Positions 1-33,072 of a DNA stretch of 64,000 nucleotides are shown in pieces. Source of the DNA: Aphrocallistes beatrix (Eukaryota; Porifera; Hexactinellida; Sceptrulophora; Aphrocallistidae). The stretch's first letter is position 1. Every line of letters begins with the position of its first letter. The notes beneath the pieces were generated by a model, which saw only the letters and a program-made list of their open reading frames with translations, was not told the origin of the DNA and did no database searches. Made by a program: the position numbers and the translations under genes. Location of the stretch: contig OY725498.1 of the NCBI GenBank assembly GCA_963281255.1, positions 1,426,001-1,490,000 of the forward strand, given 5' to 3'.

Positions 1-1771
1 CCAACGCTTTTAACATTACAGAAACTTTCACTTTCTCCCAGTCGATACGGATCCATTTCTGTACGTTTGGAATGCGCGGGAAATCAAAAGCATCTCTTGG
101 AGTCTGCCTTGAACGAATAAATTTGGTGTATGGAGTTCCGACAAACTTTTGAGATTGAAAATAGTGCTCTGTAGTTGGCCATGAAACATTGTCAATAAAG
201 AGGTGTGTGCATTGGAAAAAGTTTGTGAATTCATAGAAGGGTGCATCTACGTCATAAAAGTTGATGTGATCATCATTTGGACGATACCACTTGGGTCCTA
301 ATGCAAAGTTAGTACTCTTCAACTCTCCACCAAATTTAGATGTGAATCTATTCTGGTATCTGTCCAAGTGTTCTCTCTTGCAGAAATCCCTCTCAGAGGT
401 AACACTAGAGTCACAGAGTGGAAACTTACACAGTCTCTTGTTCGTATTACTAACAGATTTCTCATACTTTCTGTGACACCATTCATTGAGAAGAAAGAAA
501 CATTTGTCAGAACACGCGACACCATGGATACTCTGGTTATTCTCACAGCACCAGTAACAACCTGGAATGATGGCATTGGAGTTTCCAGGAGTCGTCTTGA
601 TGCAAGAATCCGGAAGTGTCTCAAACAGTTTCCTAGGAATAGGACCGACATCAGACTTCTCATAAAGGAATCTCGTCAGGATCTCACAAAAGACAAGTTC
701 ACCTTTCTGAAACTGAATTGGTTTAGTTTGTGTAGATGGATTTTTCTTTGAAACTGAGACTGCGAATTGAGGAGTTTCAAAAGTAGAGTGGCACTGGTAC
801 CAAATTGGTCCTTCATCAACTTGGTCTGAGTTCAAATTTGGAAATTTTTTAATTTCTTTTTCATACTCTTTACCACAATACACAGTCCCACTTTTTGCTA
901 GGTTCCCACAACCAGGAAATTTACAAAATGTGACTCTACTCAAAAGCTTTTGCCTACACCACTCATTAAACGCGAAGTAGCATTTCTTCGAACAGAGATA
1001 TTCAGCAGTATCAGATACTTTCTTACCACACATGTAACACCCTGATATCTCTCTATTCCAGTTAGGAGAACTGGAGAACTCAGATATGAGGTGTTCTTCC
1101 CTTTTGAAGCTTCTAGGAATGGGCCCCACATCTGTGTAAAATATCAATCCATTTTTCAATTCAGATGCAACATCCATCTTACATTCGTTAGTAGACGGTT
1201 TGTTCTGTTGTTTTAGCTTGGGAGCCCTGTTATACATGTCAATGCTGATTGCCTTGTCATACCAATTAGGACCATTTCGAACAACAGTTTTCAATAATTT
1301 CTGATAATCAGAAAACTGTGAAAATGCTGCATCGAATTTACCCTCATCACTTCCACTGCAATATAGACTATCTTGATTATGAAGGATATTATCACAGCCT
1401 AGTAACCTGCAGAATCTTTTGTTGGTAAAGAACTCGACTCTCTCAATACACCAGTCATGGAAATAGACGAGACATTCCCTAGAACAACAGATTCCTAGAA
1501 ATTCAGCTGTCTTTACCTTTTCAACACACCAGTAACAACCATGAATAGTATATTTCCAATTTTTTGAATCTGCATATTGAGGTGTAGAAGCATTTTTATG
1601 GAAATTTCTACGAGGAATGCTGCCTACATCAGTTTCATAATAGAGCGATTTTAGGAGTTCTTCTGAAAACTGTAAATTAATTCCCACTGCACCTATAGCT
1701 TGGCCGAATGCGTCTTTACAATAGTATCCCCAGTAATTGAGAAAGGGACTCCACTCAGAGTTGGATGTCAT
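1..1771 (-). CDS. NADAR-domain protein with cysteine-rich modules, class I, cut by the window edge
   Basis: Reading minus-strand from the ATG at 1771, the frame stays open to base 1 (about 590 codons) with no stop, so the C-terminus lies outside the window. It starts MTSNSEWSPFLNYWG, then has three cysteine-rich modules, each with a TDVGxIPR-type signature, GC-Y-x-C, C-x3-C, a W-C, C-x4-C and a G-P-x-W-Y end. From about base 260 to the edge comes the start of a NADAR (YbiA/DUF1768) domain: INFYDVDAPFYEFTNFF, then WPTTEHYFQSQKF, then QKWIR and VMLKAL. The FWGDGGD part is not in the window. NADAR enzymes cleave N-glycosidic bonds of NAD/ADP-ribose-related compounds. The role of the modules is unknown; zinc binding is inferred. 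It is one of the least damaged copies in the cluster. Confidence 0.8.
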   Translation of the reverse strand, partial: MTSNSEWSPFLNYWGYYCKDAFGQAIGAVGINLQFSEELLKSLYYETDVGSIPRRNFHKNASTPQYADSKNWKYTIHGCYWCVEKVKTAEFLGICCSRECLVYFHDWCIERVEFFTNKRFCRLLGCDNILHNQDSLYCSGSDEGKFDAAFSQFSDYQKLLKTVVRNGPNWYDKAISIDMYNRAPKLKQQNKPSTNECKMDVASELKNGLIFYTDVGPIPRSFKREEHLISEFSSSPNWNREISGCYMCGKKVSDTAEYLCSKKCYFAFNEWCRQKLLSRVTFCKFPGCGNLAKSGTVYCGKEYEKEIKKFPNLNSDQVDEGPIWYQCHSTFETPQFAVSVSKKNPSTQTKPIQFQKGELVFCEILTRFLYEKSDVGPIPRKLFETLPDSCIKTTPGNSNAIIPGCYWCCENNQSIHGVACSDKCFFLLNEWCHRKYEKSVSNTNKRLCKFPLCDSSVTSERDFCKREHLDRYQNRFTSKFGGELKSTNFALGPKWYRPNDDHINFYDVDAPFYEFTNFFQCTHLFIDNVSWPTTEHYFQSQKFVGTPYTKFIRSRQTPRDAFDFPRIPNVQKWIRIDWEKVKVSVMLKAL

Positions 1772-1990
1772 TATCCAAAAAACTCGATCTTTCAAGAACT
1801 AATTAGAATAGAATAGATCAATCAATTTTTTACCAAAAGTGCCAACAATAATTTACTCTTAAATCAGTCTACTCTTAAATGGGATATTGCATACAATGAA
1901 GTGGCTAGTTTGTCTAAACTTTAGTTCAGTTATTGCTTAGTTCCATAGGACTTTACACATCTTGTTAAAATATATGCGTCACTAATTCGT
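1772..1990 (-). promoter_or_regulatory. Conserved 5' flank shared by cluster genes (copy 1)
   Basis: The bases just upstream of the ATG match the upstream regions at 6669, 20167 and 28864: an AAAAAATCGAT-like stretch, AGAACTAATTAGAA, AGAATAGAT and an AAAAGTGGCAAC-like stretch occur in the same order. Class I and class IV genes share it although their N-termini differ. I infer that it holds the promoter and 5' leader. No TATA box or start site was proven. Confidence 0.45.
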
Positions 1991-2089
1991 AACTGAATAC
2001 TAATTTAGAACAGAGAGGCATTCACTATTAACTAGAAAGCGTTCATTGGTAATCAGTGTAAAATGCAATGAAGAATCAATGAACTAACT

Positions 2090-2240
2090 ATTCTCGTAGA
2101 TTGGCGCAGGTACACCTGAATCGATCCTGCGAGGAGTGTAACCAATGTCTGTTCCGTAATAAAGAGTCTACAGAAGAATCTCTGAGAAAAGAACTATCAT
2201 GTAGGATTTTGTCTGTTTCCCAATATGTTTAAATGGAGCA
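2090..2240 (-). pseudogene. Fragment of a class III cysteine-module gene (N-terminal part)
   Basis: On the minus strand this matches the start of the class III genes at 12,517, 23,928 and 31,988. It covers the stretch that encodes IVPFSEILLTTLYYGTDIGY in those copies, including the TCTGTTCCGTAATAAAGAG block. The frame is broken and nothing beyond the first module start is kept. It marks an old duplication or recombination breakpoint. Confidence 0.6.
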
Positions 2241-3007
2241 AGTGAATAACGATAATCTTTAAAAAAAAACTCTTAAATGGGCATGCCCCTTTTAAATTGT
2301 GCGATCATGTGGGGGGTATTTGGGTGAGAAAAAGCCCAAGAAGCGCATCTGGGAGGATTTCTTTCACAAAATTCCTACTTTCGAATCGACTGGCGTAGTA
2401 TATCCTTGATAGAGGGCTGTATATTGAAAACATTCATCAATTAAGGCAAATATGTTGATGATTTATGAATAAATTACGTGTTTTTTCATTCGGGCAAGAA
2501 ATAGAGGCTTCTAGTGGTTACTAGACGCAATTACTCAATATAGGCAATCGCAACACTTGGTTTGTCATCAATTGACCATATATGGATATTTTCGATTTGT
2601 CCATTGCATTCCTTAGGGGATCAGCTTCCAAATTGTATATTGGCTTCTTTTAAAAGGACAATTATTGTGGTTCCTACTCTAGATTTTTGTACATTGGTGT
2701 GTATATATCAATGACCATGAGTAGACACAAATCAATTCTAACAAGTTACAGTATCAGTGAATGTATAGCAACAACTCAGCTTCAAATCACCAACCTAGAA
2801 TTCATGAATAGAATTCGACATGTCAATGAACAACTGAGCTACCAGTATTAAGTCAAAATACAGTGCCAGTTTTATAACAATAGCAGCTTTGTTTGTCCAA
2901 AGAGCGCAAAGTATGCGCTCGTGTGTACTTAAAAGAGGCTCGAATTCCTATCTATTTCACTTGATTTTGTATTCCGTTATTTGGAAAATCAAGTAATTTC
3001 CTAGTCT

Positions 3008-3398: not shown

Positions 3399-5705
3399 TC
3401 ACTGCATATCATCTGTACTGCCAGGGGGAGAGAAGGTTGCAGAGTCGTGTGAAATTTCGTTACTATTGCCTGATGCTACTTGTACAACTTCAGGAGTATC
3501 AGAAGCTTGATCAGCAAGCGGGACTATAACTTGTTCGAACTTGTCGGATTGGTTAACTAAAACATTAGTCAATTGACTAGAAATAGGATTTAGTTGAGGA
3601 TTTAAACTATTCTGTACAGTGGAGTTGGCAGGATCAGGTTGATTGGTTTGCGAAGTATTGTTGACAGGAGGCGTGTCAGTCATAGACCTATCCTGGCTGC
3701 TAGTTCCAGCATTCACATCCTCTGGCTTAGAACTTCCGAGATAGGAAGGAGTAGGAGTCTGATCAAGGGTTGTGTCGGTCTTAGATTCATTGGACTGTAG
3801 TACACTGAAAGGTTCATTCAACACTTTAGTTGACGAATTAGCCGAACTAATATTTTCGCATTCACTAAAGGAACTATTCATACTCGGGAAGAATGTGGCG
3901 GCTTTTAACATTTCTCTCACACTCATTAATACGTATCCCAAATGAGCATTATCTCTACATACCAATGGACGAGATCCCGTCCTTAGCAACAGACCCTTCA
4001 ATACACAGTTCTGTTGGAACTTAGCCATCAGAGCCTGGTACAATACTCTCTTCCTCACTTCCTCCCAATCTGGTCTAACCCACTTCACACAACGTATTTC
4101 CCATTCTTCCAGCTCGTGGAGTCTCTCCATCTTCCTCACGTGATGGAGATAAGGAGTGCCTAACAACTTCTGAGCACACATGCAATGCTGCACTGTAGGC
4201 CAGATCATACGATACAAATTCAACAGAGATGGAAATGAGTTAGAAAGTTCAGAGAAAGGACCAGAGTCACTGAAATAGATAGGTGTTAAGTCCCTGTACC
4301 ATTTGGGACCCAGTGTTAATTCAATTTCTTCCTGCAAACGAATGGATACACCTCCTATCAGCAACGACCGCTTCTTCGCATGTTCAATGCTGCAACACTC
4401 ACAGGGATCAACTCGCGGTTCTTCACAACCAGGAAGACCACACAGCTTCAACCTACACACCTGCTCTACTCGCCTCACACACCACTCATGCAACAGCAGC
4501 CAACACCTGACACAGCAAGCTGTCTCTTCAAAGCGGGCGTTGCTATTTCCGCACCAGTAGCACCCGACTATGTCCACGTTGCTACAGGGATTCCTCGGAG
4601 GGAATTGATCAGAAGTGTGGCTCTGTTGTCCACTCCGACGAGGTATCAGACCGACATCTGTGTGCTGTGAAAGATATGCACTCAGTTTATTAGAAAACTT
4701 GAAAACGTTTATCTTAATGTCAGAACTAATGCTACTAGTAGGTAGAGGAAACGTCTGAGAGTGAGACTGAGGATTAGGAGGTATATCACCCTTAGACTTG
4801 TCTTGGCTATCAGCTCTAGTATTCAAGTTTATTTGTTTAGAACTACTGGGAGAGGAAGAAGTAAGAGTCTGTCTTGGAGATGTATCATTCTTAGTTTCAG
4901 GAATATCATCCTTTTCAGCTTTATTTTGAGCTAAATTTAACAAATGTTTTCCTTTCACACTAGGAGATTCATTGTAGTCAACTTCCATTGTTTCATTTCC
5001 ACTCATAGGAGAGGATGGATTATCAAATGGACACACATAGCCATCTGGGAGTTTATGTTTCAATTCACTTGGATCTGCATTAGGAGACTGATGTGATTCA
5101 GAAATAGCGTTCGTTTTAGCGATAGTACTATCCAGTTCCCAGGAAGAAGCACTTAATTGCATTGGCAGACATTCGGGATTTAAAGGAACATTATAAACGT
5201 TAAAAGGGCTGGAACTCGTGGAGTTATTTATATTACTTGATTGATCGAGGTAAGGAGTGTGAACTGAGGTTTGTTGTGGATTATATTGAGGTGTGATCTG
5301 TGGAAATACTTCTCGGATTTGATCCCTCACAAGCACAAGTAGCCGTCCCAAATGATTCTCACCACTTTCATCACCTCCATCACCCCAGAATCTGTCATTT
5401 TTCGTGTGCTCCACTAGCTGAGCATTACCAGTTTTTAACAGAATCTTAAGTAAAGTTTCATCTTGAGAAAACTTCTCCACTAATACACGTCGCATTACTG
5501 TTAACTTAATGCTTTGCCAATTTGGATGTATCCATTTCTGAACATTTCGTTCTCGAGAGAAGTTAAATGCATCTCGAGGAGATGGGAGAGTGCTGACGTA
5601 ATTGAAGTATGGAGTTCCAGCAAATTTGCTAGCTTGAAAATAGTGCTCCGAAGTCTTCCACTTAATATTGCCAATAATGAGATTTCTACAAGGATAGAAA
5701 TTCAT
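3399..5705 (-). CDS. NADAR plus degenerate NADAR-like protein ORF (3' part of a broken class I gene)
   Basis: This 768-codon ORF opens inside a NADAR domain. KTSEHYFQ lies at residues 17-24, W58 and W63 follow, and EHTKNDRFWGDGGD lies at 99-112, so the catalytic motif is intact. In-frame codons upstream (5706-5916) add GPSWYADYSRN and FYNLEAPFYEF, the true domain start, but have no ATG. A Ser/Pro-rich linker follows, then one cysteine-rich module (HTDVGLIPRR, GCYWCGN, HEWCVRR, CGLPGC) and a second NADAR-like domain. That second domain keeps W-P-T-x-x-H and the VRPDWEEVRKRVLYQALMAK helix but lacks FWGDGGD. Compared with the intact paralogue at 17,134-20,166, the upstream modules are lost. It may be translated from a late start or may be a pseudogene. 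Confidence 0.6.
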   Translation of the reverse strand: MNFYPCRNLIIGNIKWKTSEHYFQASKFAGTPYFNYVSTLPSPRDAFNFSRERNVQKWIHPNWQSIKLTVMRRVLVEKFSQDETLLKILLKTGNAQLVEHTKNDRFWGDGGDESGENHLGRLLVLVRDQIREVFPQITPQYNPQQTSVHTPYLDQSSNINNSTSSSPFNVYNVPLNPECLPMQLSASSWELDSTIAKTNAISESHQSPNADPSELKHKLPDGYVCPFDNPSSPMSGNETMEVDYNESPSVKGKHLLNLAQNKAEKDDIPETKNDTSPRQTLTSSSPSSSKQINLNTRADSQDKSKGDIPPNPQSHSQTFPLPTSSISSDIKINVFKFSNKLSAYLSQHTDVGLIPRRSGQQSHTSDQFPPRNPCSNVDIVGCYWCGNSNARFEETACCVRCWLLLHEWCVRRVEQVCRLKLCGLPGCEEPRVDPCECCSIEHAKKRSLLIGGVSIRLQEEIELTLGPKWYRDLTPIYFSDSGPFSELSNSFPSLLNLYRMIWPTVQHCMCAQKLLGTPYLHHVRKMERLHELEEWEIRCVKWVRPDWEEVRKRVLYQALMAKFQQNCVLKGLLLRTGSRPLVCRDNAHLGYVLMSVREMLKAATFFPSMNSSFSECENISSANSSTKVLNEPFSVLQSNESKTDTTLDQTPTPSYLGSSKPEDVNAGTSSQDRSMTDTPPVNNTSQTNQPDPANSTVQNSLNPQLNPISSQLTNVLVNQSDKFEQVIVPLADQASDTPEVVQVASGNSNEISHDSATFSPPGSTDDMQ

Positions 5706-5939
5706 GAATTCGTAAAAGGGAGCTTCTAGATTATAAAATTCAATCAGATTACGTGAGTAGTCGGCGTACCAGGAAGGTCCCAGAACGAAGTCAGTATCCT
5801 TTAGAAGGGAGAAGTACTTCTTGAAAGAAGACTCGAACTGAACAGAATGGTCACGGTTACAGCACTTGAAACTACCAGATGCATGCCTTTCAAACTCAGC
5901 ACTCGACAGAGTCGTTCGTTAGAGATATCAGTGAACTTG

Positions 5940-6668
5940 TTATGCAACCACTCGTTGAAGAAGAAAAAATTTTATCTCTGCTGACCAATTAGAAGAATTA
6001 TAATACTTGGAAGTGAGATGTTGCTGAGTAATCGTTCCTCGTGGAATAACTCCAACATCTGTGTTGTAGATTAGTTTTGTTCTGAACTGTTCAGGAAATT
6101 CCAAGTTATACTTTGCCCTGTTATACTTCATGTCAATGCTGATTACCTTTACATACCAACTAGGACCACTTCGAACAATATATTTCAATAATTTCTGATG
6201 ATCAGGAAATTGTCGAACTGCTGCATCAAATTTGGCCTGATCACTTACACTGCAATATGGCTTATCTTGGTTATGAAGGATCTTATCACAACCTAGTAAC
6301 CTACAGAATCTTTTGTTGGTAAAGAACTCGACTCTCTCAATACACCAGTCATGGAAATAGACAAGACATTTCCTAGAACAAAATATTCCTAGAAAATCAG
6401 CTGTCTTTACCTCGCCAACACACCAGTAACAACCATGAATATGATATTTCCAATTTTTTGAATCTGCATATTGAGGTGTAGAAGTAGTTCTGTGGGAATT
6501 TACTCCACGAGGAATGCTGCCTACATCAGTTTCATAATAAAGCGATTTTAGGAGTTCTTCTGAAAACTGGAAATTAATTCCCACTGCACCGATAGCTTGA
6601 CCGAATACGTCTTTACGATAATATCCCCAGTAATTGAGAAAGGAACTCCGCTCAGTGTTAGAAGCCAT
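5940..6668 (-). pseudogene. N-terminal part of the same broken class I gene
   Basis: The ORF starts MASNTERSSFLNYWG, as in the intact class I gene, and covers module 1 and the start of module 2 (YNTDVGVIPRG, NWSAEIK). A deletion then joins NWSAEIK directly to the FFFFNEWLHNK region of module 3 in the wrong frame, so translation stops at once. A further 1-bp deletion near 5885 shifts the frame again before the NADAR part. Relative to 17,134-20,166 the deletion removes about 190 codons. The locus 3399-6668 is therefore one former gene in two frames. Confidence 0.7.
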
Positions 6669-6900
6669 TATCTAAAAAATTGATCTAATTGTATCTTTCA
6701 AGAACTAATTAGAACAGAATAGATTAATCAGTTTTTCACTAAAAGTGGCAACTTAAATAATTTACACCCTTAAAATGGATCTTGTATACGTATAATGAAG
6801 TGGCTAGTTTGTCTAAACTTTAGTTCAGTCAGTGCTTAGGTCCATAGAACTTTACATATCTTGTTCAAATGTATGCGTCACTAATTAGTAGCTGAATACT
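6669..6900 (-). promoter_or_regulatory. Conserved 5' flank shared by cluster genes (copy 2)
   Basis: Nearly identical to 20,167-20,420 and similar to 1,772-1,990 and 28,864-29,010. It starts right at the ATG of the broken class I copy and probably contains the old promoter. Confidence 0.45.
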
Positions 6901-6984: not shown

Positions 6985-7170
6985 ACTCTCAAACTATTCT
7001 CGTAGATGGTGCAGCTACACCTTCTTCTGAATCGATCCTGTGGAGGATGTAACTAATGTCTGTTCCGTAATAAAGAGTCTTAAGAAGTATCTCTGAGAAA
7101 GGAACTATCATGTAGGATTTTGTCTGTTTCCCAAATATGTTTTAAATGGAGCAAGTGAATATGATCTTAG
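6985..7170 (-). pseudogene. Fragment of a class III cysteine-module gene
   Basis: Same kind of remnant as at 2090-2240: the segment around ATGTCTGTTCCGTAATAAAG and the ATGGAGCAAGTGAAT edge match the 5' coding part of the class III genes. It sits at the same place relative to a class I gene, so the pair was duplicated together. Confidence 0.6.
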
Positions 7171-7393
7171 GCTGGAATTTTTTGAATAAACAATCCAATG
7201 GTTCCATGTAGGGTGCGAGCGTGAGCGCAAGTTCAGCGCTCCCGCTTTTGGACATTGCTGAATAGCAGGATGAAAATATATTCAAGTATTTACAAGCTAT
7301 ACAATAGACTGTGCCCAAAGAGTCTAGGAATATAGAAAATGCATTAAACATAAAATATGAATCAGAGATACAGTATGTTATGAGTAATTATAA

Positions 7394-8763
7394 TCACTGC
7401 ACATCATCTGTACTGCCAGGGGGAGAGAAGGCTGCAGAATCGTGTGAAATTTCGTTACTACCGCCTGATGTTACTTGCACAACTTCAGTAGTATCAGAAG
7501 AAGCCGGATCACTATGTGGGACTACAACTTCTTCGAACTTCTCGGATTGGATAACTGAAACATTAGTCAATTGACTAGAAATAGGATTTAGTTGAGGATT
7601 TAAACTATTCTGTGCAGTGGAGTTGGTTGGATCAGGTTGATAGGTATGCGAAGTATTGCCGACAGTAAGATGAGATAATGCATTTGAATTAGATCTTGTG
7701 TCACTACCCATTATAGCTTTGTTAGAAACTCCATAATGTGAACTTCAGTCGACGGTGAAATGAAGTTCCATTCAAATTGGATGCCAGTTCCAGAATTCAA
7801 GTTTAATAGGTTAGAACTAATGAGAGAGAAAGAAGTAGGAGTCTGATTAGGAGGCGTGTCAGTCAAAGACTTATCCTGACTACCAGTTCCAGCATTCACA
7901 TCCTCTGGCTTAGAACTACCGAGATAGGAAGGAGTAGGAGTCTGATCAAGGGTTGTGTTGGCCTTAGACTCATTGGACTGTAGCACACTGAAAGGTTCAT
8001 TCAACTTCACTTTAGTTGAGGAATTAGCTGAACTGTTATTTTCGCATCCACCAAAGGAACTATTCATACTCGGGAAGAATGTGGCGGCTTTTAACGCTTC
8101 TCTCACACTCATTAACACGTCTCCCAAATGAGCATTATCTCGACATACCAATGGACGAGATCCTGTCCTTAGCAACAGACCCTTCAATACACAGTTCTGT
8201 TGGAACTTAGCCATCAGAGCCTGGTACAATACTCTCTTCCTCACTCCCTCCCAATCTGGTCTAACCCACTTCACACAACGTATTTCCCATTCTTCCAGCT
8301 CGTGGAGTCTTAGAGTTAGAAAGTTCAGAGAAAGGACCAGAGTCACTGAAATAGATAGGTGTAAAGTCCCTGTACCATTTGGGACCCAGTGTTAATTCAA
8401 TTTCTTCCTGCAAACGAATGGATACACCTCCTATCAGTAACGACCGCTCCTTCACATGTTCAATGCTGCAACACTCACAGGGATCAACTCACGGTTCTTC
8501 ACAACCAGGAAGACCACACAGCTTCAACCTACACACCTGCTCCACTCGCCTCAACCACTCATGCAACAGCAGCCAACACCTGACACAGCAAGCTATCTCT
8601 TCAAAGCGGGCGTTGCTATTTCCGCACCAGTAGCACCCGACTATGTCCACGTTGCTACAGGGATTCCTCGGAGGGAATTGATCAGAAGTGTGGCTCTGTT
8701 GTCCACTCCGACGAGGTATCAGACCGACATCTGTGTGCTGTGAAAGATATGCACTCAGTTTAT
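7394..8763 (-). pseudogene. Broken copy of the module + degenerate NADAR C-terminal half
   Basis: Matches the last third of the intact class I protein. Visible damage: CGA to TGA at 8489-8491 (EEP-stop-VDPCE); loss of the WC in HEWCVRR (now HEWLRR); and an out-of-frame deletion near 8310 joining SELSNS to RLHELEEWE, which removes the first part of the degenerate NADAR domain. Pieces remain open as 7711-8346 (VKWVRPDWEGVRKRVLYQA) and 7394-7711 (the Asn/Pro/Ser-rich tail ending PPGSTDDVQ). It was once continuous with the next feature. Confidence 0.75.
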
Positions 8764-10178
8764 TAGAAAACTTGAAAACTTGATCTTAATATCAGAACTA
8801 ATGTTACTGGTAGGTAGAGAAAACGTCTGAGACTGAGGATTAGGATTAGGGGAAATATAATCTTTAGAATCTATTAGTTTAGAACCACCCAGAGAGGAAG
8901 AAATAGGAGTCTGTCTTGGAGGTGTGACATTCTTAGATTTGTCCTGGTTACCAGTTTCAGTATTCAAGTCTGTTAGTTCAGAACTACTGAGAGAGGAAGG
9001 AGAAGGAGAAGGAGTCTCTCTTGGAGGTGTGTCATTCTTAGATTTGTCCTGGTTACCAGTTCCAGTATTCAAGTATTCAAGTATCACTGGATGTTTTGTT
9101 GGATTTCCAATATGGTGAGGAATATACCAGTCAGGATTTCGTTCTACCAATTTTTCAATTTTTTTCAGCTTTTTAACTCCGGCGTATTCTTCTTCGATCT
9201 TTTGAGCATGCTCGTTGTTACAATAGTCAAAGCCAGTTTGTACAGGTTTCAAGCATCCGGGAAACTTACACAGAGTAATGCCAGTGAAAGACTTGATCTT
9301 CCTTCTGCACCACTCATAGAATATTAAGTAACAACTGTAACTGCAGACATAAGAATTCCCAGTAGAAGCACTCGACTTGTCACCACAACAGTAACACCCA
9401 CGTATCTCCTTCTTCCAGTTAGGATAGATGGAATATGGAGAAGCTAATTGCTGCTCACTAGGTTTCTCTCTAGGAATGATGCCAACGTCAGTTTGGAATA
9501 TCAGATAATCTCTAAATTCGATTGGAATGTATTTGTCAGGATTTTCGCTTACCTTAATCTTTCCTGGGAATTTATTTTGTGAATGCTCTGATGTTTTGGA
9601 TTTATCATTCGGGAAAAAAGTAGTATTTGGTTCGGGTTGAGATTGAGGATGATTAATCGTGCGATGATAGTGGAGGGATTTAGAATCATACCAATTTGGG
9701 CCATTCCGTAAAATAAGTTTCGAGAGAGATTCTTGATCCACCCATTCAGGAAATGCCTTTCCAAATTCATCTCTATGTGTGGTGTTACAATAAGAATTAT
9801 TGGTACATGCATGCCTTGTCACATCCAGGAAATCGACAAAATTTCCTGGTGTTAGAAACTCCACTCTCTCAATGCACCAATCATGAAAATAGAAGAGACA
9901 ATCTTTCGAACAACAAATTCCAAACCATTCTTTCTGAGCATCAGAACACCAGTAACATCCTTGAATAGGGAAATTCCAATTCGTTGAATCCATATATTTA
10001 GGTTTATTCATGCTGACATCAAGATCAATTCCTCGTGGAATTGGGCCGATATCAGTTACATAGCAAAGTGTTCGGAGGAGTCCTTCTGAAATCTCAATTT
10101 TTTTGATACTTCCAAAAAAGAATTTTTGAAAGTCCTTGGCAGCGTCTGCCCCAAAGAATATCTAGATTGAGCAGACAT
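8755..10178 (-). pseudogene. Class II cysteine-module gene, disrupted at both ends
   Basis: The ATG at 10,178 (MSAQSRYSLG) is followed by a 2-bp insertion relative to the class II copy at 32,673, so the start is out of frame with the rest. From 10,011 a 418-codon ORF stays open. It holds module 1 (GCYWCSDAQKEWFGICCSKDC, with FHDWCIERVEF), module 2 (FQTDVGIIPREKPSEQQLAS, GCYCCGD, YEWCRRKIKSF, CKFPGC) and a repeated linker of about 27 residues built on GNQDKSKNDTPPRETPSPS. A 1-bp deletion near 8,780 throws the frame before KFSNKLSAYLSQ, cutting off the module and NADAR-like part at 7,394-8,763. An internal start at 10,011 could still give a two-module protein. Confidence 0.65.
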
Positions 10179-10967: not shown

Positions 10968-11189
10968 TTTAATGAATTAGTATTTGTTTATTTGTTTACA
11001 AAACATAGATACATTAAGGAAACAGATCTCAAAAATGTGATTGAATCTAGCTTTCAACTATTGATCATCTGTTGTTACGAAGGGCATAGATTCCGAATAC
11101 AGTACACCTTTGCAGTGTTTATATAGTGGCTTGTTGTGATAAGATAATTATTGTGGCCCGTGCACTCGATTCATACACCCCTGTTAAAA

Positions 11190-20911: not shown

Positions 20912-21224
20912 TTTAATAAATTAGTATTTGTTTATTTTTGTTTACAATACATAGATACATGAAGAAAACAAATATCAAAAAATGTGATCGAATCTAGCTT
21001 TCAACTATTGATCTGTTGTTACGAAGGGTATAGATTCGGAATACAGTAAACTCTCGCAGTGTTCATATAGTGGTTTGCTGTGGCAAGGTCATTATTGTGG
21101 CCCACGCACTCGATTCATACACCCCTGTTAAAATCTCGTCTAGATTAGAGGTTCTACTACAATGCGAATTATGAATTGCTATTCAATTTATCTATCTTTG
21201 TTTTTAATTACAGCTTTTATTCTG

Positions 21225-22704: not shown

Positions 22705-23928
22705 TTATACAACCTCAGGAATATCAGGATAATCCTGATCACTATGTGGGACTACTACTGCTTCCAAAATGTCGGATTGGTTAGCTGAAGCATCTTGATG
22801 CGGTTTGTCAACTTTAGAAGGAGTTACAATTTTAGAGTGAACAGATGTAGGAACATCTGGAGTTTTAGGATATTCCGTTTTAGAGGGATCAGATGTAGGA
22901 GCAGCTGTGGATTTAAAAGTAGCTCCAGTTTTAGAGGAATCAGAGGTGACATTATTAGATGGTTCTGAGTTATCATACCAATAAGGACCTTGAGCTCCAA
23001 GTCTTGACTTGACCTCATTAAATGTTAGGTTACATATTTTATAATTGTCTCGTAGGAGTTTTAAATGAGCATCACTACATGTGAAAACACTCGACCGAGA
23101 CTTGTGCTTACATCCAGGTTGTTCGCAATAGTTATTTTTAGTATTTGCATATACCTTCAATCTACACCACTCGTGGAATATCAGATAGCATCTTCCTGAA
23201 CACAGATATTCATTGTCACTTGTATGTTTCTTACAAAGATAACAGCCTTCAATCTTTCTATTCCAGTTTGCATGTGTAGAGTATTGGGAACTAGAATCAC
23301 CACTTAACCTGTAACTTCTCGGGATAGGATCTACGTCTGTGTAGAATAAGAGGGCAGTACTCAAATTGTGCTAGAACTTGTTTGTACCTGATTATTTATG
23401 AGATGAATCTGACTTGCGAGTGATATTATCATACCATGAAGGTCTTAGGGATAATTCCCTTCTCAGTTTGTCTCTATCAAGAAATGTTAAAAAATCGCGT
23501 ATATATTTATCTCGGTGTGCAACAGAACAACACTCGTCTTTAGTTTGAGAAGAATAAACACTTTCACAACCTGGTAGTTTACAAAAACGCCGTTGGTGAA
23601 GCATTCCTGCTTTCTCCACACACCACTCATGGAAATAGAAAATACAATCACTACCACAACATATACCCTGAACATCTGTCGATTTATAACCACACCAGTA
23701 ACATCCTATTATATCTTTCTTCTTATTACTATTCTCGTATATTGGCACAGTTAAACCTTCTGAATCGATCGTGCGAGGAATGTAACTAATGTCTGTTCCG
23801 TAATAAAGAGTGTTCAGAAGAATCTCTGAGAAAGGAATTATCATGTAGGGTTTTGTCTTCCCAAATCTTCTTTCCAAAATATTTTCCCATCGAGTTTTAA
23901 ATGGAGCAGAGGAACCATACCCAGCCAT
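22705..23928 (-). pseudogene. Class III cysteine-module gene with a 4-bp insertion
   Basis: From ATG 23,928 (MAGYGSSAPFKTRWENILE) it encodes module 1 (YYGTDISYIPRT, GCYWCGYK, FHEWCVEKAG, CKLPGC, ECC-x3-H, RPSWYDN), then stops at 23,392 because TCATAAATAATCAGG has 4 bases more than the 31-kb copy. The second half (22,705-23,364) stays open: FYTDVDPIPRSYRLSGD, GCYLC, FHEWCRLKV, CEQPGCKHKS, GPYWYDN, then a Thr/Ser/Pro-rich tail ending DYPDIPEVV. No NADAR domain is present. If the insertion is real, only a one-module protein is made. Confidence 0.7.
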
Positions 23929-23943
23929 GTGTAGAGTATACAA

Positions 23944-25226: not shown

Positions 25227-28200
25227 TTATTTGTAGACAGTCTTAAGTTCGTCCTGATTACCAGTTCCAGCATTCATGACTATAAGGTTTGAACTACTGG
25301 GATAGGAAGGAGTAGGAGGCTGATCAGGAGGTACATCCACCTTGTCCGATATCGGAAAATGATTCAGTATGTTTGGAAGGTAAGGAGTGCTCATGCGTAG
25401 TTCGCTTCTAACTTTCATCAACAATTCTCCTAGTTTATTAGCTCCTGTTCTGTCTCCACCATCTCCCCAGAATTTATCATTACTCGTATGTTCAAAGATT
25501 CGCTTCTCACCAGTTCTGTTCAGAATATCAGCGAGATCTGGATTCTGTACAAACTTGTGCCTCAGCACATTGAGCATTACCTGTGTCTTAATGTTATGCC
25601 AGTCAGGGCGGATCCATCGTTGGACCATTGATATTCTTGCGAACTCAAAAGCATTTTCAGGAGTGTCCAGCTTGCTAACATAAGTCATTAGTGGAGTTCC
25701 AACAAACTTATTTCCCTCAAAAGCGTGTTCTGATGTCGTCCAGGAAATAAGATCCATAAAAAGTTCTTCACATTTATAGAAATTATTAAATTCGTAGAAA
25801 GGTTCATCACTGTTGTAGAAGTCAATGTGAGTAGTTTCTACATCATCGTACCATTTGGGACCAAGTGCGAATTCAGTACTCTTTAACAGGGGACGGAATT
25901 CTTTCAATTTGTCATAACGTAAAGAGTGAGTTTGCGTACAACATTCGAAATTTGGAGATGAATAAGAGTCACAGCCTGAATATCTACATAATTTCCTTTT
26001 TGATAACTTTGTGTATTTTCTATGGACCCATTCATTGAATAGAAAGAAACACTTTTTAGAACAGACAACACTGTTCTGTTTAGGACGTGTACAGCACCAG
26101 TAACATTCAGGAATCTCTAGATTCCAGTTAGAATCGACCTTCTTGTGCAGAGGAGGCATGAGAGGAAATATTTCTCTGGGAATTGGTCCTACATCAGTGT
26201 GGTAGTATAAAAACTGTGTCAATTCCCAAGCAAATGCTAAGTTAGGTGATATATGGTGAGGAATATACCAGTCAGGATCTCGTTCTACCAATTTTTCAAT
26301 GTTTTTCAGCTTTTTAATTCTGGCGTATTCTTCTTCGATCTTTTGAGCATGCTCGTTGTTACAATAGTCAAAGTCAGCTTGTACAGGTTTCATGCATCTG
26401 GGAAACTTACACAGAGTAATAGCAGTGAAAGACTTGATCTTCCTTCTGCACCACTCATAGAATATTAAGTAACAACTGTAACTGCAGACACAAGAATTCC
26501 CAGTAGAAGCACTCAACTTGTCACCACAACAGTAACACCCACGTATCTCCTTCTTCCAGTTAGGATAGACGGAATAAGGAGAAGCTAATTGCTGCTCACT
26601 AGGTTTCTCCCTAGGAATGATGCCAACGTCAGTTTGGAATATCAGATAATCTCTGAATTCGATTGGAATGTATTTGTCAGGATTTTCGCTTACCTTAATC
26701 TTTCCTGGGAATTTATTTTGTGAATGCTCTGATGTTTTGGATTTATCATTCGGGAAAAAATTAGTAGTTGGTTCAGGTTGAGATTTAGGATGATTAATCG
26801 TTGGTTGATAGTCAAGGGATTTAGAATTATACAAACTTGGGCCTTTCCGTAAAACTTTTTTAGAGAGAGCTTCTTGATCTACCCATTGAGGCAAGGACTT
26901 TCCAAATTCATCTTTATGCGAGGTGTCACAATAAGAATCATTCGTACATGCCTTGTCACATCCAGGAAATCGACAAAACTCCCTTTGTGTTAGCGTTCTG
27001 AATCCTGAACTACTCACCTTCTTCAAGGCCACCTTAGACTTAAGATAATCTCTCTCAGCTCTTTGATTAAATTTGACAGGTTCAGTATAATGTTTAGGAA
27101 TCTTCCTTCCTTCTAATGGTGCAGCAGTAATGTTCTTTGTTTGTGTAATAATATTGCGTTCAATTGAACTGGTCTTCTTAACAACGATATCTGTATCCTT
27201 CGTATTCACTTCAGAGTCTCTACGACTTCTTCCTTCGAGCACAGTAATAGTTTCCATTTTATCTGTTATTAGATTAGTACAACTTTCTGGATTTCCTGTT
27301 TCTGAAACTGGGAGAATCTTAGTCCGATCGTTCTTCATTTCTTTAACTGGAGTAACATTCTCCGTATATAGATCTGGATCAGTAGCCATTAGTAGGTTAA
27401 ACTTCGAGTAAACATCATCAGGTCTAAATTTTTCTTGCCTAGATATATCAACTAGGTTCTCAGGAGCTGGGAGAGTTGCTGCTTCTAAATATCTGCTTAG
27501 CTCCCCTGAGGTGCTGATACCTATAATCTGATCTGAATTTTTGAATGCTGGATACACTCCTAATTCCTCTGTCCGTCGAAGATCTTGTTGCGTATTTGAT
27601 AATTGTTTTTGCAAGATGACAGTATTCATATCCATTGGGTTAGGACTACCGAGATGAGAAGCAATATGAGTTTGATTAGTGGGTAGGTCAGCTGTAGACT
27701 TGTCCTGTCTACCAGTTCCAATATTTACATCTGGGTTTGAACTACCGGGATAGGAAGGAGTAGGAGTCTGATTTGGAGGTATATCCACCTTATCCGGTAT
27801 CGGGAAATGATTCAGTGTATTTGGAAGGTAAGGAGTGCTCATGCGTAGTTCGCTTCTGACTTTTATCAACAATTCTCCTAGTTTATTAGCTCCTGTTCTG
27901 TCTCCACCATCTCCCCAGAATTTATCATTACTCGTATGTTCATAGATTCGCTTCTCACCAGTTCTGTTCAGAATATCAGCGAGATCTGGATTCTGTACAA
28001 ACTTGTGTCTCAGCACATTGAGCATTACCTGTGTCTTAATGCTATGCCAGTCTGGACGGATCCATCGTTGGACCATTGATATTCTTGCGAACTCAAAAGC
28101 CTTTCTAGGAGTGTCCAGCTTGCTAACATAAGTCATTAGTGGAGTTCCAACAAACTTATTTCCCTCAAAAGCGTGTTCTGATGTGGTCCAGGAAATAGGA

Positions 28201-28571
28201 TCGATAAAAAGTTTTTCACATTTATAAAAATTATTAAATTCGTAGAAAGGTTCATCACTGTTGTAGAAGTCAATGTGAGTAGTTTCTACATCATCGTACC
28301 ATTTGGGACCAAGTGCGAATTCAGTACTCTTTAACAGGGGACGGAATTCTTTCAATTTGTCATAACGTAAAGAGTGAGTTTGCGTACAACATTCGAAATT
28401 TGGAGATGAATAAGAGTCACAACCTAAATATCTACATAATTTCCTTTTTGATAATTTAGTATATTTTCTATGGAGCCATTCATTGAAGAGAAAGAAACAC
28501 TTATTAGAACAGACAACAGTTTTTCTGTTTAGGACGTGTACAGCACCAGTAACATCCAGGAATCTCTGCAT
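25227..28571 (-). CDS. Class IV protein with two complete NADAR domains
   Basis: The 1114-codon ORF is the main body of a larger gene whose 5' part is the next feature. Order: end of a cysteine-rich module (residues 21-92), NADAR 1 (about 100-242, with DFYNSDEPFYEFNNFY, SWTTSEHAF, EHTSNDKFWGDGGD at 211-224), a linker with QTPTPSYPGSS, half a class II module (CRFPGCDKACTNDSYC), a full class II-like module (FQTDVGIIPREKPS, GCYCCGD, YEWCRRK), a class IV module (YYHTDVGPIPREIF, ECYWCC, FNEWVHRKY), then NADAR 2 close to the C-terminus with the same EHT-x-ND-x-FWGDGGD motif. The two NADAR domains are almost identical. No membrane helix. Expected activity, from the family, is hydrolysis of an N-glycosidic bond of an ADP-ribose-type substrate. 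Substrate unknown. Confidence 0.8.
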   Translation of the reverse strand: MQRFLDVTGAVHVLNRKTVVCSNKCFFLFNEWLHRKYTKLSKRKLCRYLGCDSYSSPNFECCTQTHSLRYDKLKEFRPLLKSTEFALGPKWYDDVETTHIDFYNSDEPFYEFNNFYKCEKLFIDPISWTTSEHAFEGNKFVGTPLMTYVSKLDTPRKAFEFARISMVQRWIRPDWHSIKTQVMLNVLRHKFVQNPDLADILNRTGEKRIYEHTSNDKFWGDGGDRTGANKLGELLIKVRSELRMSTPYLPNTLNHFPIPDKVDIPPNQTPTPSYPGSSNPDVNIGTGRQDKSTADLPTNQTHIASHLGSPNPMDMNTVILQKQLSNTQQDLRRTEELGVYPAFKNSDQIIGISTSGELSRYLEAATLPAPENLVDISRQEKFRPDDVYSKFNLLMATDPDLYTENVTPVKEMKNDRTKILPVSETGNPESCTNLITDKMETITVLEGRSRRDSEVNTKDTDIVVKKTSSIERNIITQTKNITAAPLEGRKIPKHYTEPVKFNQRAERDYLKSKVALKKVSSSGFRTLTQREFCRFPGCDKACTNDSYCDTSHKDEFGKSLPQWVDQEALSKKVLRKGPSLYNSKSLDYQPTINHPKSQPEPTTNFFPNDKSKTSEHSQNKFPGKIKVSENPDKYIPIEFRDYLIFQTDVGIIPREKPSEQQLASPYSVYPNWKKEIRGCYCCGDKLSASTGNSCVCSYSCYLIFYEWCRRKIKSFTAITLCKFPRCMKPVQADFDYCNNEHAQKIEEEYARIKKLKNIEKLVERDPDWYIPHHISPNLAFAWELTQFLYYHTDVGPIPREIFPLMPPLHKKVDSNWNLEIPECYWCCTRPKQNSVVCSKKCFFLFNEWVHRKYTKLSKRKLCRYSGCDSYSSPNFECCTQTHSLRYDKLKEFRPLLKSTEFALGPKWYDDVETTHIDFYNSDEPFYEFNNFYKCEELFMDLISWTTSEHAFEGNKFVGTPLMTYVSKLDTPENAFEFARISMVQRWIRPDWHNIKTQVMLNVLRHKFVQNPDLADILNRTGEKRIFEHTSNDKFWGDGGDRTGANKLGELLMKVRSELRMSTPYLPNILNHFPISDKVDVPPDQPPTPSYPSSSNLIVMNAGTGNQDELKTVYK

Positions 28572-28863
28572 TCCAGTTAGGATCGACCTTCTTGTGCGGA
28601 GGAAGAGGCATAAGAGGAAATATTTCTCTGGGAATTGGTCCTACATCAGTGTGGTAGTATAAAAACTGTGTCAATTCCCAAGAAAATACAAAGTTCGGTG
28701 ATTGTTTATTATCTATAATAGATTGTGTACTTTCAATTATCTTTGACTGTGAAATGTCGTCTGTTACTGGCTGTTTTGTTGGATTTCCAATATGGTGAGG
28801 AATATACCAGTCAGGATCTCGTTCTACCAATTTTTCAATGTTCTTCTGCTTTTTAAATGCCAT
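28504..28863 (-). pseudogene. 5' part of the class IV two-NADAR gene, joined by a +1 shift
   Basis: Starts MAFKKQKNIEKLVERDPDWY at 28,863 and runs through YYHTDVGPIPREIF and GCYWCCTRPKQK, then stops at 28,504. An extra base in a 5-A run (28,520-28,524 on the plus strand as T) compared with the second module at 26,075 puts the rest in another frame. It is either a sequencing or assembly slip in a homopolymer, or a true break. Without it, one protein of about 1,210 residues would span 25,227-28,863. Confidence 0.7.
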
Positions 28864-29010: not shown

Positions 29011-29029
29011 TATTGCTTATTGGGAACTA

Positions 29030-29430
29030 GAATCACCACTTAACCTGTAAGCAGTACTCAGCTCTTCTGCTAAACACGTTTTTGTTGTACCAAAGTCAGG
29101 TTGAACTGTGCTAGAACTTGTTTGTACCTGATTATGAGATGAATCTGACTTGCGAGTGATATTATCATACCATGAAGGTCTAGGGATAATTCCCTTTTCA
29201 GTTTGTCTCCATCATAAAATATAATATGTATTATTTCTCAGTGTATATAACAGAACAACACTTGTATTTACTTTGACAAAAATAAACACTTTCACAACCT
29301 GGTAATTTACAAAAACGCTGTTGTTGAAACATTAATACTGTCTCTACACACCATTCATGAAGATATGATACAATCATTCTACTGTGAGACCTGATTTGCT
29401 TGGAGATATCAAATTGTGACATTTTATAAC
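29030..29430 (-). pseudogene. Decayed class III cysteine-module gene
   Basis: Matches the class III module 1 end and spacer: YLHEWCVETVLMF, FCKLPGCESVYFC, KCCSV, then the PSWYDNIT and SSHNQVQTSS parts and a piece of the next module. Several frame breaks and a missing 5' start. The longest open piece is 29,231-29,422. Confidence 0.65.
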
Positions 29431-29916
29431 TAACTAGTTATATTATAATACGATCTCTTTGGGCTCGGTCGCATCGTGAAATGACCCCTGTATATAAATT
29501 TTCACATTTCTCCGGTCTGGCCTTTCCAAATAAAAATTCTGAACGAATATACAAACATAAATCGTGTTTCTAGTGTGCATCCTACACTAATATATAGGAT
29601 CTATGATCCAAATATTTGTACAGGATTAGAACTAAAAGACTATGATTTCCGGCTACTCAAATACGCTCATTGACTGAAGCTGGAACATTCTTTGAGCTTG
29701 ATAGCGCAATATTGCGTCACCAACTATCAGGAATGAGGACCCGGCTATAGGTGACTTTTTCTAAAGAATATAGAAATATAAAAATGCATAGAAATAAAAT
29801 ATGAATCAGACACAGTATGTCAGGTATTACAATCACTGCATATCATCTGTACTGCAAGGGGGAGAACGCTACACCTGTAGGGTCATGTGATCTTTCGTTA
29901 GTACCGCCTGATGCTC

Positions 29917-30462
29917 TTATACAACCTCAGGAATATCAGGATAATCCTGATCACTATGTGGGACTACTACTGCTTCCAAAATGTCGGATTGGTTAGCTGA
30001 AGCATCTTGATGCGGTTTGTCAACAAAAATCCATTGATTGGTCAGCGAAGTATTGTTGATAGTATTATAAGATAATGCACCTGATTTAGGTCTCGTGTTG
30101 TTACCTATTATAACATTGTTAGAGGTTCTATAATGTGAAACGTAAGTGGATGCTGGACTTAAGCTAGAATCAACTTCGTCATTGGGCTGGAGTGCACTGA
30201 AAGGTTCATTCAACTTCACTTTAGTTAATGAATTAACTGAATTATCATTTTTGCTTTTACCGTGCTTTGTATCGTTGCTGTTAGGACTAGAGGTAGTACT
30301 AGGAGTATCGGAGTTAACAGGTATAAAAATTTGCTGCGGTAAGTCACCCTTAGATATAGGGTGGCTATCAGTTCCAGTATTCCCATTCCTTGGATTATAA
30401 TCACCTAGACAGGAAGGAGTAGGAGTCTGATTAGGGGCTGTATAGGCCTTAGTTTCATTCAC
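29917..30462 (-). pseudogene. Linker and tail piece of a family gene
   Basis: A 181-codon open piece with no cysteine-rich module: NQTPTPSCLGDYNPRNGN linker, VKLNEPFSALQPND and the ILEAVVVPHSDQDYPDIPEVV tail identical to the end of 22,705-23,364. It mixes parts seen in class I (KVKLNEPF) and class III (PDIPEVV) genes, so it is a recombinant fragment. Confidence 0.6.
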
Positions 30463-31988
30463 ACTTCCTGGATTATAACTGGAGACATGAATGGTTAATG
30501 GTGGGTTGATGGTCGAGGGATTGAGAATTATACCAACTTGGGCTATTCCGTAAAACTGTTTTTGAACGAGATTCTTGATCTACCGATTGATTACGTGTGT
30601 AACATCCCGATATTCCAGTATTGGGGGAGGTAGGACCTCCAAACTTTAATTCCATTGAAAATTCTTTGTGCTGTACCTCTTACTTGCTTTAAGAGCAGTT
30701 TCAGTTTTAAAGAGATCAGCTGTAGGAACATCTGGAGCTTTAAAAGCAGCTCTATAATTAGATAGATCAGATGTACGAGCACCTGTGTCTTTAAGAGTAA
30801 TTCCAATTTTAAAGAGATCAGATATAGGAACGTCTTTAGAAGGAGTTTCAATTTTAGAGTGAAGAACGTCTGTAGTTTTAGGATATTCCGTTTTAGAAGG
30901 ATCAGATGTAGGAGCACCTGTGTATTGAAGAGTAACTCCAGTTTTAGAAGGATCTAATGCGACATTAGTGATAGTATTAGATGTTTCTAAGGCATCATAC
31001 CAATAAGGACCTTGAGCTGTAAGTCTTGACTTGACCTCATTAAATGTTAGATTACATCTTTTATAATTGTCTAGTAGGAGTTTTACATGAGCATCACTAC
31101 ATGTGAAAACATCCGATCAAGACTTGTGCTTACATCCAGGTTGTTTGCAATAGTTATTTTTAGTATTTGCATATACCTTCAATTTACACCACTCGTGGAA
31201 TATCAGATAGCATCTTCCTGAACACAGATATTCATTGTCACTTGTACGCTGCTTACAAAGATAACAGCCTTCAATCTGTCTATTCCAGTTTGCATGTGTA
31301 GAGTATTGGGAATTAGAATCACCACTTAACCTGTAACTTCTCGGGATAGGACCTACGTCTGTGTAGAACAAGAGTGCAGTACTCAACTCTTCTGATAAAC
31401 GCATTTTTGCTTTGCTGAAGTCAGGTTGAATTGTGTTAGAACTTGTTTGTACTTGATTATGAGATGAATGCGACTTATGAGTGATATTATCATACCATGA
31501 AGGTCCTAGGGATAATTGCTTCTTCAGTTTGTCTCCATCATGAAATGTTAAAAAATCGCGTATATATTTATCTCGGTGTGCAACAGAACAACACTCGAAC
31601 TTACTTTGAGAAGAAGAAAAATTTTCACAACCTGGTAATTTACAAAAACGCCGTTGGTTAAGCATTCCTGCTTTCTCCACACACCACTCATGGAAATAGA
31701 AAATACAATCACTACTACAACATATACCCTGAACATCTGTCGATTTATTACCACACCAGTAACATGTTATATCTCATTCTCCTTATTACTATTCTCGTAG
31801 ATTGGCACAGTTAAATCTTCTGAATCGATCCTGCGAGGAATGTAACCAATGTCTGTTCCGTAATAAAGAGTGGTAAGAAGAATCTCTGAGAAAGGAACTA
31901 TCATGCATGGTTTTGTCTTCCCAAATCTTCTTTTCAAAATATTTTCCCATCGAGTGTTAAATGGAGCAGAGGAACCATACCCAGCCAT
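30463..31988 (-). pseudogene. Class III cysteine-module gene with several breaks
   Basis: Begins MAGYGSSAPFNTRWENILK at 31,988 and goes through YYGTDIGYIPRR. It is broken near 31,770 (ENSNKENEI-stop) by a small deletion where others have KDIIGCYWCG. The frame reopens at 31,680: EKAGMLNQRRFCKLPGC, LGPSWYDN, LFYTDVGPIPRSYRLSGD, GCYLCKQ, FHEWCKLKV, CKQPGCKHKS, then TGA at 31,117-31,119. Beyond the stop a long repeated Thr/Ser/Lys linker follows down to about 30,660, with units like APTSDPSKTEYPKT. Close sister of 22,705-23,928. Confidence 0.7.
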
Positions 31989-32003
31989 GTGTAGAGCATA
32001 CAA

Positions 32004-32396
32004 TTAACCTATCTAAATATATACGTTGTATGATGAGTAGCAATAATATGCAGTGTTAGATAGGTTAGTATTGAATAATTTATACCGAAGACGGACGACA
32101 ATATTTTATCATTTATTTATATTACACGGTTTTTCATTTGGACAAGAAAATAGAGGCTTCTAGTAAAATTTCTTATATTCAAACAATCTTAGTTATTATG
32201 GTCTTTAGAGATTGTAATTCGAATATTTCAGTGATGTTAAAAGATATTTCGAGTCTAATACTTAGAAATGTGTTTTGTAGGGTGATTTTTGTGTAAAGAA
32301 ACTGACTCACAGCCAAAATCGAGAGTCAGGGCTTAATTAACTTTTCAGTCTTCAAATTCTAGGAAAAATTAGCTCACACATTTTCCTCGAGAGACA
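32004..32396. other. Spacer, nothing recognised
   Basis: AT-rich sequence between the class III and class II remnants. Apart from a short match to the 2,500 and 24,090 spacers (GTTTTTCATTTGGACAAG), I see no gene or element. Confidence 0.4.
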
Positions 32397-32673
32397 ATCT
32401 TTCGAACAACAAATTCCAAACAAATCTTTCTGAGCATCAGAACACCAGTAACATCCTTGAATAGAGAAATTCCAATTAGTTGAATCCTTGTATTTAGGTT
32501 TATTCATGCTGACATCAAAGTAAATTCCTCGTGGAATTGGGCCGATATCAGTTTCATAGCAAAAATATTCGGAGGAGTCCTTCTGAAAACTCTATTTTTG
32601 TGCTATTTCCAAAAACGAATTTTTGAAAGCCCTTGGCAGCGTCTGCCAAAGAATATCCAGATTGAGCAGCCAT
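32397..32673 (-). pseudogene. Class II cysteine-module gene, 5' fragment
   Basis: ATG at 32,673 gives MAAQSGYSLADAAKGFQKF, the best-kept class II start. A base insertion near 32,566 (CGAATATTTTTGC) causes a stop before TDIGPIPRGI. The module then continues in another frame (MNKPKYKDSTNWNF, GCYWCSDAQKDLFGICC) and is cut at 32,397 after CSKDC. Confidence 0.7.
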
Positions 32674-33072
32674 CGTAGAAGAAACTGAAGTTTTAATCAG
32701 CTAAATGACAAATTTAACAAAGTATATTTTCTTACACACTGGTACCTGGACCATGGAATACTTAGGAATGCCTGGGATTTAAGTTCGTATTTTACAGTCG
32801 AGGATTTATTAAAATATCCTGAAAATACTGCTTGAACATCCATCAGACTCTAACTGACCAATTACAAGTGGTAATAGGATTCATAATTGGGTGAATAACA
32901 CACAATAAAATATAGATTCTCGACTCAGCGGCTTTGTTTTGTGGAAAATGCCAGATCGCGTTTCAATCGCGATTGAGACGTTCGTTGTTAACTAACATAA
33001 AATGCAATGAGATCAATTAACTACTCTCACAAACTAATTCACTCTGGAATAATATACAGTACAGCTGTGTGA

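Follow-up and report, generated by a model that had tools for sequence, protein, structure and literature searches.

A family of genes that join tandem cysteine-rich modules to a C-terminal NADAR domain forms an expanded array in the window, by which we mean the whole stretch of 64,000 nucleotides analysed here, from contig OY725498.1 of the glass sponge Aphrocallistes beatrix (contig C12, positions 1426001-1490000; the genome holds 100,537,919 bases in 28 contigs). Two types of protein are encoded, one with the NADAR catalytic residues and one ending in a conserved pseudo-NADAR, and the genes are mosaics that turn over. We propose that the family may be an undescribed intracellular eraser of ADP-ribose on guanine with a pseudoenzyme partner, evolving by birth-and-death in a conflict-like mode, and give this reading a probability of about 0.45. 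The first-pass annotation of the window had suspected a conflict or sensing system in a cluster of NADAR and cysteine-module genes; the division into enzymes and pseudoenzymes is an addition to it.

The NADAR identity given at first pass is confirmed by the Pfam hidden Markov model (HMM) PF08719. Four open reading frames (ORFs) of the window are matched, at 3402-5918 (E value 3.5e-47), 25230-28640 (1.5e-58), 17137-20169 (3.7e-12) and 2-1798 (1.7e-10), and their scores of 161.1, 198.1, 47.2 and 41.8 bits all exceed the cut-off of 35.1. The typical protein has three cysteine modules, a YbiA-type NADAR and a disordered tail, and the NADAR domain belongs to the YbiA fold. Of the 27 active-type domains, 25 have E43, K50 and a glutamate in the place of E125; the exceptions are P0029, with K for E125, and a broken window copy at 14682-15149, with M for the catalytic K50. 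NADAR domains are known for cutting ADP-ribose off guanine, and the active-type domain is predicted to hydrolyse guanine ADP-ribose, given its conserved catalytic residues and what is known of the family. With E. coli YbiA and its branch (PF08719, TIGR02464) it has in common the fold, the catalytic glutamates and lysine, and the EHTxND.(FY)WGDGG loop. YbiA is a single-domain protein, whereas the sponge NADAR follows cysteine modules, precedes a long disordered tail and lies in a tandem array with pseudoenzyme paralogues. The model TIGR02464, for a riboflavin-intermediate N-glycosidase (cut-off 73.7 bits), is passed by two enzyme-type proteins, with 109 and 108.8 bits; two pseudo-type proteins fall under the cut-off, with 41.5 and 44.1 bits. 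The NADAR anti-phage model NF053876 gives 66.1 and 63.6 bits, below its curated cut-off of 240.

The second protein type has modules 1 and 2, a module of a separate class, 3', and a terminal pseudo-NADAR without the catalytic loop. Among the eight near-complete pseudo-NADARs, six from database proteins and two in the window, E43, E125, D130 and W133 are kept in none, E43 and E125 being replaced and the loop that carries D130 and W133 being gone; K50 is kept in seven and is R in one. A ninth, partial pseudo-NADAR (8071-8304) was left out of this residue count. Across the pseudo-NADARs 32 columns do not vary, 10 of which are rare among enzymes, and all the domains fall in one clade with a support of 100 in the Shimodaira-Hasegawa-like approximate likelihood ratio test (SH-aLRT). 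The loss of the catalytic residues is old and conserved, not recent decay.

Profiles of 25 modules and of the enzyme-type and pseudo-type NADARs were made and scanned over C12:1376001-1490000 and C8:893001-940000; module matches elsewhere in the genome rest on one protein query. The scan gave 66 matches on C12, from 1391548 to 1458582, and 19 on C8, from 911172 to 935954, a second site at 911-936 kb. All 85 lie on the minus strand, including the 42 in the window, which comprise 34 module, five active-type NADAR and three pseudo-NADAR matches, fragments counted; 15 of the 34 module matches cover at least 120 of the 135 positions. The single-strand family cluster of the first-pass annotation is thus real and larger than claimed, but its extent, put at positions 1 to 32,700, needs correction, as the array does not start at base 1 of the window: it runs left to C12:1391206, for a total of about 67 kb, with the second site on C8. 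Left of the window stand unbroken frames with NADAR of 793, 892, 3034, 860, 693 and 687 amino acids (aa), each with three modules except the 687-aa frame, which has two, and a 448-aa frame with one module only; on C8 there are a three-module frame of 840 aa and a two-module frame of 537 aa. Only two window copies are open from the start through the modules to the NADAR or pseudo-NADAR, namely the 711-aa gene that the left edge of the window cuts through and the 1011-aa gene. Since the remaining copies are broken or fused, as assembled, the window represents the decaying right half of the array. The features of the array in the window are the following.

1..1798 (-), enzyme-type gene with three modules and NADAR, a 711-aa ORF reaching window position -334 (ORF and domain map)
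284..694 (-), cysteine module of class 3, adjoining the NADAR (150.2 bits)
797..1177 (-), cysteine module of class 2 (150.3 bits)
1259..1672 (-), cysteine module of class 1 (138.8 bits)
3402..5918 (-), 839-aa ORF with active-type NADAR, class 3' module and pseudo-NADAR fused in frame (ORF list, Pfam, profiles)
3885..4292 (-), pseudo-NADAR without the catalytic loop (profile and residue check)
5310..5759 (-), active-type NADAR (profile; the 3402-5918 ORF matches YbiA of the PDB with E 3.7e-29)
5943..6671 (-), 243-aa ORF, 5' part of the copy of the 839-aa ORF, with module 1 and the start of module 2 (profiles)
7013..10161 (-), broken pseudoenzyme-type copy with modules 1 and 2, a split class 3' module and the partial pseudo-NADAR at 8071-8304 (profiles)
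10560..10976 (-), C1D-like (Sas10_Utp3) exon copy (Pfam E 3.6e-10; 93.7% identical to 20464-21153)
12218..15749 (-), broken enzyme-type copy in which module 1 survives as a piece (12260), module 3 is spread over two frames and the NADAR lies at 14682-15149 (profiles)
17137..20169 (-), 1011-aa open gene with modules 1, 2 and 3, a few NADAR-start residues, then a module of class 3' and a pseudo-NADAR (ORF, profiles)
17617..18024 (-), pseudo-NADAR of the 1011-aa gene (profile and residue check)
20543..20920 (-), second C1D-like exon copy (20464-20911 is 97.8% identical to 32999-33444)
22708..23943 (-), remnant whose modules 1 and 2 are spread over two ORFs (profiles)
25230..28640 (-), 1137-aa ORF, two joined enzyme-type copies with NADARs at 27819-28289 and 25371-25841 and a broken 5' end (ORF, Pfam, profiles)
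29240..32582 (-), module remnants with tail (profiles)
33076..33537 (-), C1D-like gene, the apparent source of the exon copies, bordering the array on the right (Pfam Sas10_Utp3, E 6.6e-10, 39.9 bits)

The left-edge 711-aa gene keeps E, K, E, D and W of the NADAR and is chimeric: its modules 2-3 and NADAR resemble the 693-aa gene and its module 1 the 860-aa gene, and in a self-BLAST its DNA matches the former up to 1211 and the latter from 1224. The copy that contains the 839-aa ORF is broken in its 5' part, where it lacks, at 5969/5970, about 0.6 kb that the 860-aa gene has, and where the frame changes. The 1011-aa ORF starts with methionine at residue 2, and its 1010-aa protein equals the database protein P0016, from a 1,589,094-base contig, letter for letter. 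These chimeras and broken copies support the birth-and-death pattern read from the window at first pass. The C1D-like exon copies ride along with the duplication and mark its unit.

The mosaic character of the family was examined in 27 proteins with all parts, in which the N-half (modules 1-2) was separated from the C-half (module 3 or 3' and the NADAR). In the C-half tree, the six pseudo-type proteins form one clade with support of 100/100. In the N-half tree, in which they group with enzyme-type genes, forcing the six together costs 1082 log-likelihood units (approximately unbiased test, p-AU 3.46e-42); the groups for this test were set by the C-half, and the module tree had already hinted at its result. 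Each pseudo-type protein was also compared with its nearest enzyme-type protein by N-half. The N/C identities are 94/36% for an Oopsacas minuta pair on the same contig, 86/38% for a pair on one 205,903-base contig, and 93/33% for the 1011-aa and 860-aa genes of this genome, again on the same contig. The pair P0019-P0008, on separate contigs and only assumed to come from one species, gives 89/33%; P0017, whose partner lies on another contig, gives 72/35%, and P0021, with no close enzyme partner, 45/37%. These values therefore indicate recent exchange or homogenisation of the N-half in three, perhaps four, of the six, with the C-halves staying apart. In the group of the 693-aa and 711-aa genes and C8, the nonsynonymous divergence (dN) of module 3 is 0.012-0.018 against 0.039-0.060 for the NADAR at similar synonymous divergence (dS).

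The cysteine module is about 135 residues long, from a leading DVGxIPR-like motif to a closing P-x-WY. C47, C50, C62, C66, W73, C87, C92 and C103 are invariant in 25 aligned modules and H107 is nearly so, residues from which zinc binding is predicted. An AlphaFold2 model (predicted local distance difference test, pLDDT, 92.8; predicted template modelling score, pTM, 0.89) has helices at 64-82 and 105-117, which begin at the C62/C66 and C103/H107 pairs, and suggests two tandem treble-clef-like zinc sites. The CxxC and CxxxC or CxxxH pattern is like that of PHD-like or treble-clef zinc fingers (zf-HC5HC2H, Pygopus PHD), but the module stays below Pfam cut-offs and has no structural match in the PDB. 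The best Pfam E value among the 25 single modules is 0.0039 (C1_2), and no family matches more than three of them; zf-HC5HC2H matches three of the 25 (best E 0.0059). In the window ORFs no zinc-finger Pfam match reaches its cut-off, zf-HC5HC2H giving 11.9, 14.6 and 13.9 bits in three of them against 29.1. Profile matches of the module in the PDB are weak PHD fingers (best E 0.033), and the structure search of the PDB with the module model gave no match at a Foldseek E value of 0.001, a result that does not prove the fold new. A viral origin of the modules was rejected: in a fold search among viral models 0 of 60 reached E 0.001, and one scan of viral contigs with modules 1-2 returned three matches to the pattern but no relative.

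Placed in a tree, 105 modules separate by position into class 1 (37 rows), class 2 (33), class 3 (26) and class 3' (9), with SH-aLRT values of 90, 93, 98 and 96, respectively, and 65 at the deepest fork. Of the four N-terminal classes of genes that the first-pass annotation had described, what stands is that they exist as mixtures within one family; it is the modules that sort into classes. A long-branch member of class 3' ends a 2116-aa ankyrin ORF at C7:1244640-1250987, and a search with this module end returned one protein, 100% identical, and no relatives. The idea that the module in this ORF takes the place of the FYVE finger of Rabankyrin-like proteins was dropped. Nine kb from this ORF, at C7:1260173-1261384, lies an ORF with two NADAR stretches. 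In P0025, from another contig, the modules are followed by a coiled-coil piece with 29% identity (E 3e-14) to the array-adjoining ORF at C12:1388717, a likeness that hints at a syntenic locus. The disordered parts are labile: the 3034-aa ORF (C12:1404018-1413119) has 69 near-identical 33-residue repeats in its tail, and in both P0028 and P0029 the stretch from module 2 to module 3 contains 18 units of a repeat about 21 residues long. The opposite strand of the 3034-aa ORF is likewise open, for 2325 codons.

Of a first set of 26 homologues, two carry an organism name, in both cases the hexactinellid Oopsacas minuta, in agreement with the animal host assumed at first pass. A search of one protein database with a 22-member alignment returned 28 proteins, 27 of which belong to the module-NADAR family; the 28th, P0026, is a phosphatase-NADAR without modules. 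The fusion of module and NADAR noted at first pass was accordingly found only in sequences of this family. Such a search finds limited-length proteins that share short words with the query, and remote relatives may exist elsewhere. P0001, P0002, P0013 and P0016 are identical in every letter to genes of this genome. O. minuta has a pseudo-type relative, LOD99_16298 (P0018), and an enzyme-type relative, the 'PYRR-like' P0009, with the same architecture and named only as hypothetical, NADAR or riboflavin proteins. The first-pass annotation had named single-copy conservation with constant function in relatives as one finding that would speak against it. This applies in part: classes are conserved in relatives (enzyme type, pseudoenzyme type and a third, divergent type), and the family is a conserved set with lineage-specific expansion. 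No literature joining NADAR and hexactinellids was found, no title among the matches listed describes a module-NADAR family, and NADAR occurs 0 times in the main text of the genome paper of either O. minuta or A. vastus. The family is apparently lineage-restricted, new in its module and its enzyme-pseudoenzyme split, and built on a known enzyme fold.

How such a system might work can be outlined from these features. Modules in tandem, each about 135 residues long and with a predicted pair of zinc sites, would form a recognition or assembly array, and the YbiA-type NADAR at the C-terminus would remove ADP-ribose from guanine in DNA or RNA. The sister type, which has the same first two modules and ends in module 3' and the pseudo-NADAR, should not catalyse; it may pair with the enzyme through the common N-half and sense, hold or regulate the enzyme's substrate. 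Tandem duplication, module swapping and decay would renew the gene set, as in families engaged in toxin or virus ADP-ribosylation conflicts. That the two types pair by way of the N-half, and that they have a role in conflict, is what we infer; in favour of the latter are the turnover of the array and possible ADP-ribose writers in the genome. Three frames at C11:4342-4362 kb, open and in tandem, measure 1027-1036 aa and have both Macro and PARP matches, which were paired by place and equal frame length. A tie of Macro and NADAR domains to ADP-ribose-based virus-host conflict has been proposed (PMC9503650). A bolder version, which we hold to be unlikely, is a glass-sponge ADP-ribose defence in which an eraser and a dead-enzyme sensor have a common, homogenised zinc-module array of a new fold, recognise the same target or co-assemble, and differ in their effectors; the modules in ankyrin and coiled-coil proteins would then be a general recognition domain.

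Several observations weigh against the eraser-and-partner proposal. A close enzyme partner on the same contig exists for only three of the six pseudo-type proteins, and the sharing of N-halves could be neutral gene conversion between neighbours. Positive selection is not shown by the NADAR or the module rates: dN/dS is 0.26-0.96, below 1 in all 15 NADAR pairs with dS <1, and 0.09-1.38 in close module pairs, of which three are above 1 (1.01, 1.19 and 1.38, with few changes each), two of them involving a broken copy. The sponge NADAR resembles that of DarT1-NADAR (DarTG1) in its predicted removal of guanine ADP-ribose, but has glutamate, not aspartate, at the E125 position; the DarT-type partner to which the first-pass annotation had pointed gave 0 matches in this genome, in an intron-blind search whose control was positive in one of 14 genomes. 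A search for a Scabin- or pierisin-like partner found none and is uninformative, since all 14 control genomes were silent too. Furthermore, another substrate is possible because the active NADAR passes TIGR02464.

The last point bears on a metabolic housekeeping role, in which the family would have expanded in the absence of conflict as a damage-control N-glycosidase acting on reactive intermediates of nucleotide or riboflavin type. In its favour, the curated model whose cut-off is exceeded describes a riboflavin-intermediate N-glycosidase, and the name of one Oopsacas protein refers to riboflavin biosynthesis. Arrays of modules, pseudoenzymes that are conserved and gene turnover do not suit a metabolic repair enzyme, riboflavin synthesis is not known from animals, and such a role seems improbable. 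A neutral by-product, with N-half sharing and fusions arising from tandem duplication, an unrelated constant function and a pseudo-NADAR that is merely structural, agrees with the NADAR dN/dS below 1, with tandem copies that are in many cases 85-97% identical and show visible crossovers, and with the duplication of an unrelated neighbour gene pair (39.7-45.6 kb) as well. The recurrence of the N-shared, C-distinct pattern across several lineages and the specific invariant residues kept by the pseudo-NADARs make us doubt this explanation, although it deserves some weight. In another glass sponge, A. vastus, AIG1-domain genes that mostly have a single exon have expanded in tandem (PMC10282587), and this mode of expansion is for that reason not unique to the NADAR cluster.

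The same source reports trans-spliced leaders in A. vastus, which would fit a role in spliced-leader trans-splicing or RNA-cap metabolism like that of nematode SNA-3. C. elegans SNA-3 is likewise a multi-domain animal NADAR protein, whose function needs NADAR residues and one of whose NADARs lacks the catalytic ones; in the part of PMC9303266 available it is reported to be nematode-specific and essential, with three NADARs per protein and no mention of such cysteine modules. Each open sponge gene has one NADAR, two occurring only in the fused ORFs 3402-5918 and 25230-28640, which differs from the SNA-3 pattern, and an array of chimeras and broken copies is unexpected for an essential splicing factor. 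We see little chance that RNA processing explains the family, and the guanine-ADP-ribose eraser with its pseudoenzyme partner is preferred.

The roles of NADAR across eukaryotes, animals included, are called unclear in PMC11125620. The cluster makes this question testable, as it offers many catalytically complete NADARs with a natural deletion of the catalytic loop as control, and the cysteine-rich module without known relatives may be a targeting device. If the enzyme-pseudoenzyme pairing were true, a new animal player would be added to the ADP-ribose conflict network; one may speculate that the spread of a toxin or virus might be a particular danger to a syncytial animal.

NADAR matches in the whole genome number at least 37, of which 14 lie on C12 (1391-1454 kb), 10 on C13, five on C18, three on C8 and two on C7, with one each on C14, C20 and C16 in a search that gives a lower bound. 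The five on C18 form a small array at C18:1177957-1181781. Interspersed with the 10 on C13 (429-503 kb) are several ORFs that by eye resemble Argonaute, and in the one such ORF scanned a Piwi domain was matched with E 2.5e-95. Within the window, the repeated ORFs 11174-11575 and 21207-21650 both look mariner-like by eye; a transposon origin was considered and rejected, as no Pfam family matched 11174-11575. One broken copy has a 35-bp minisatellite of about seven copies (13854-14101) at its 3' end. Farther right, 11-bp AT-rich tandem arrays of about 41 and about 10 copies occupy 37946-38823, and two tandem SET and TPR genes at 39674-45580 are 88.7% identical across 2.7 kb.

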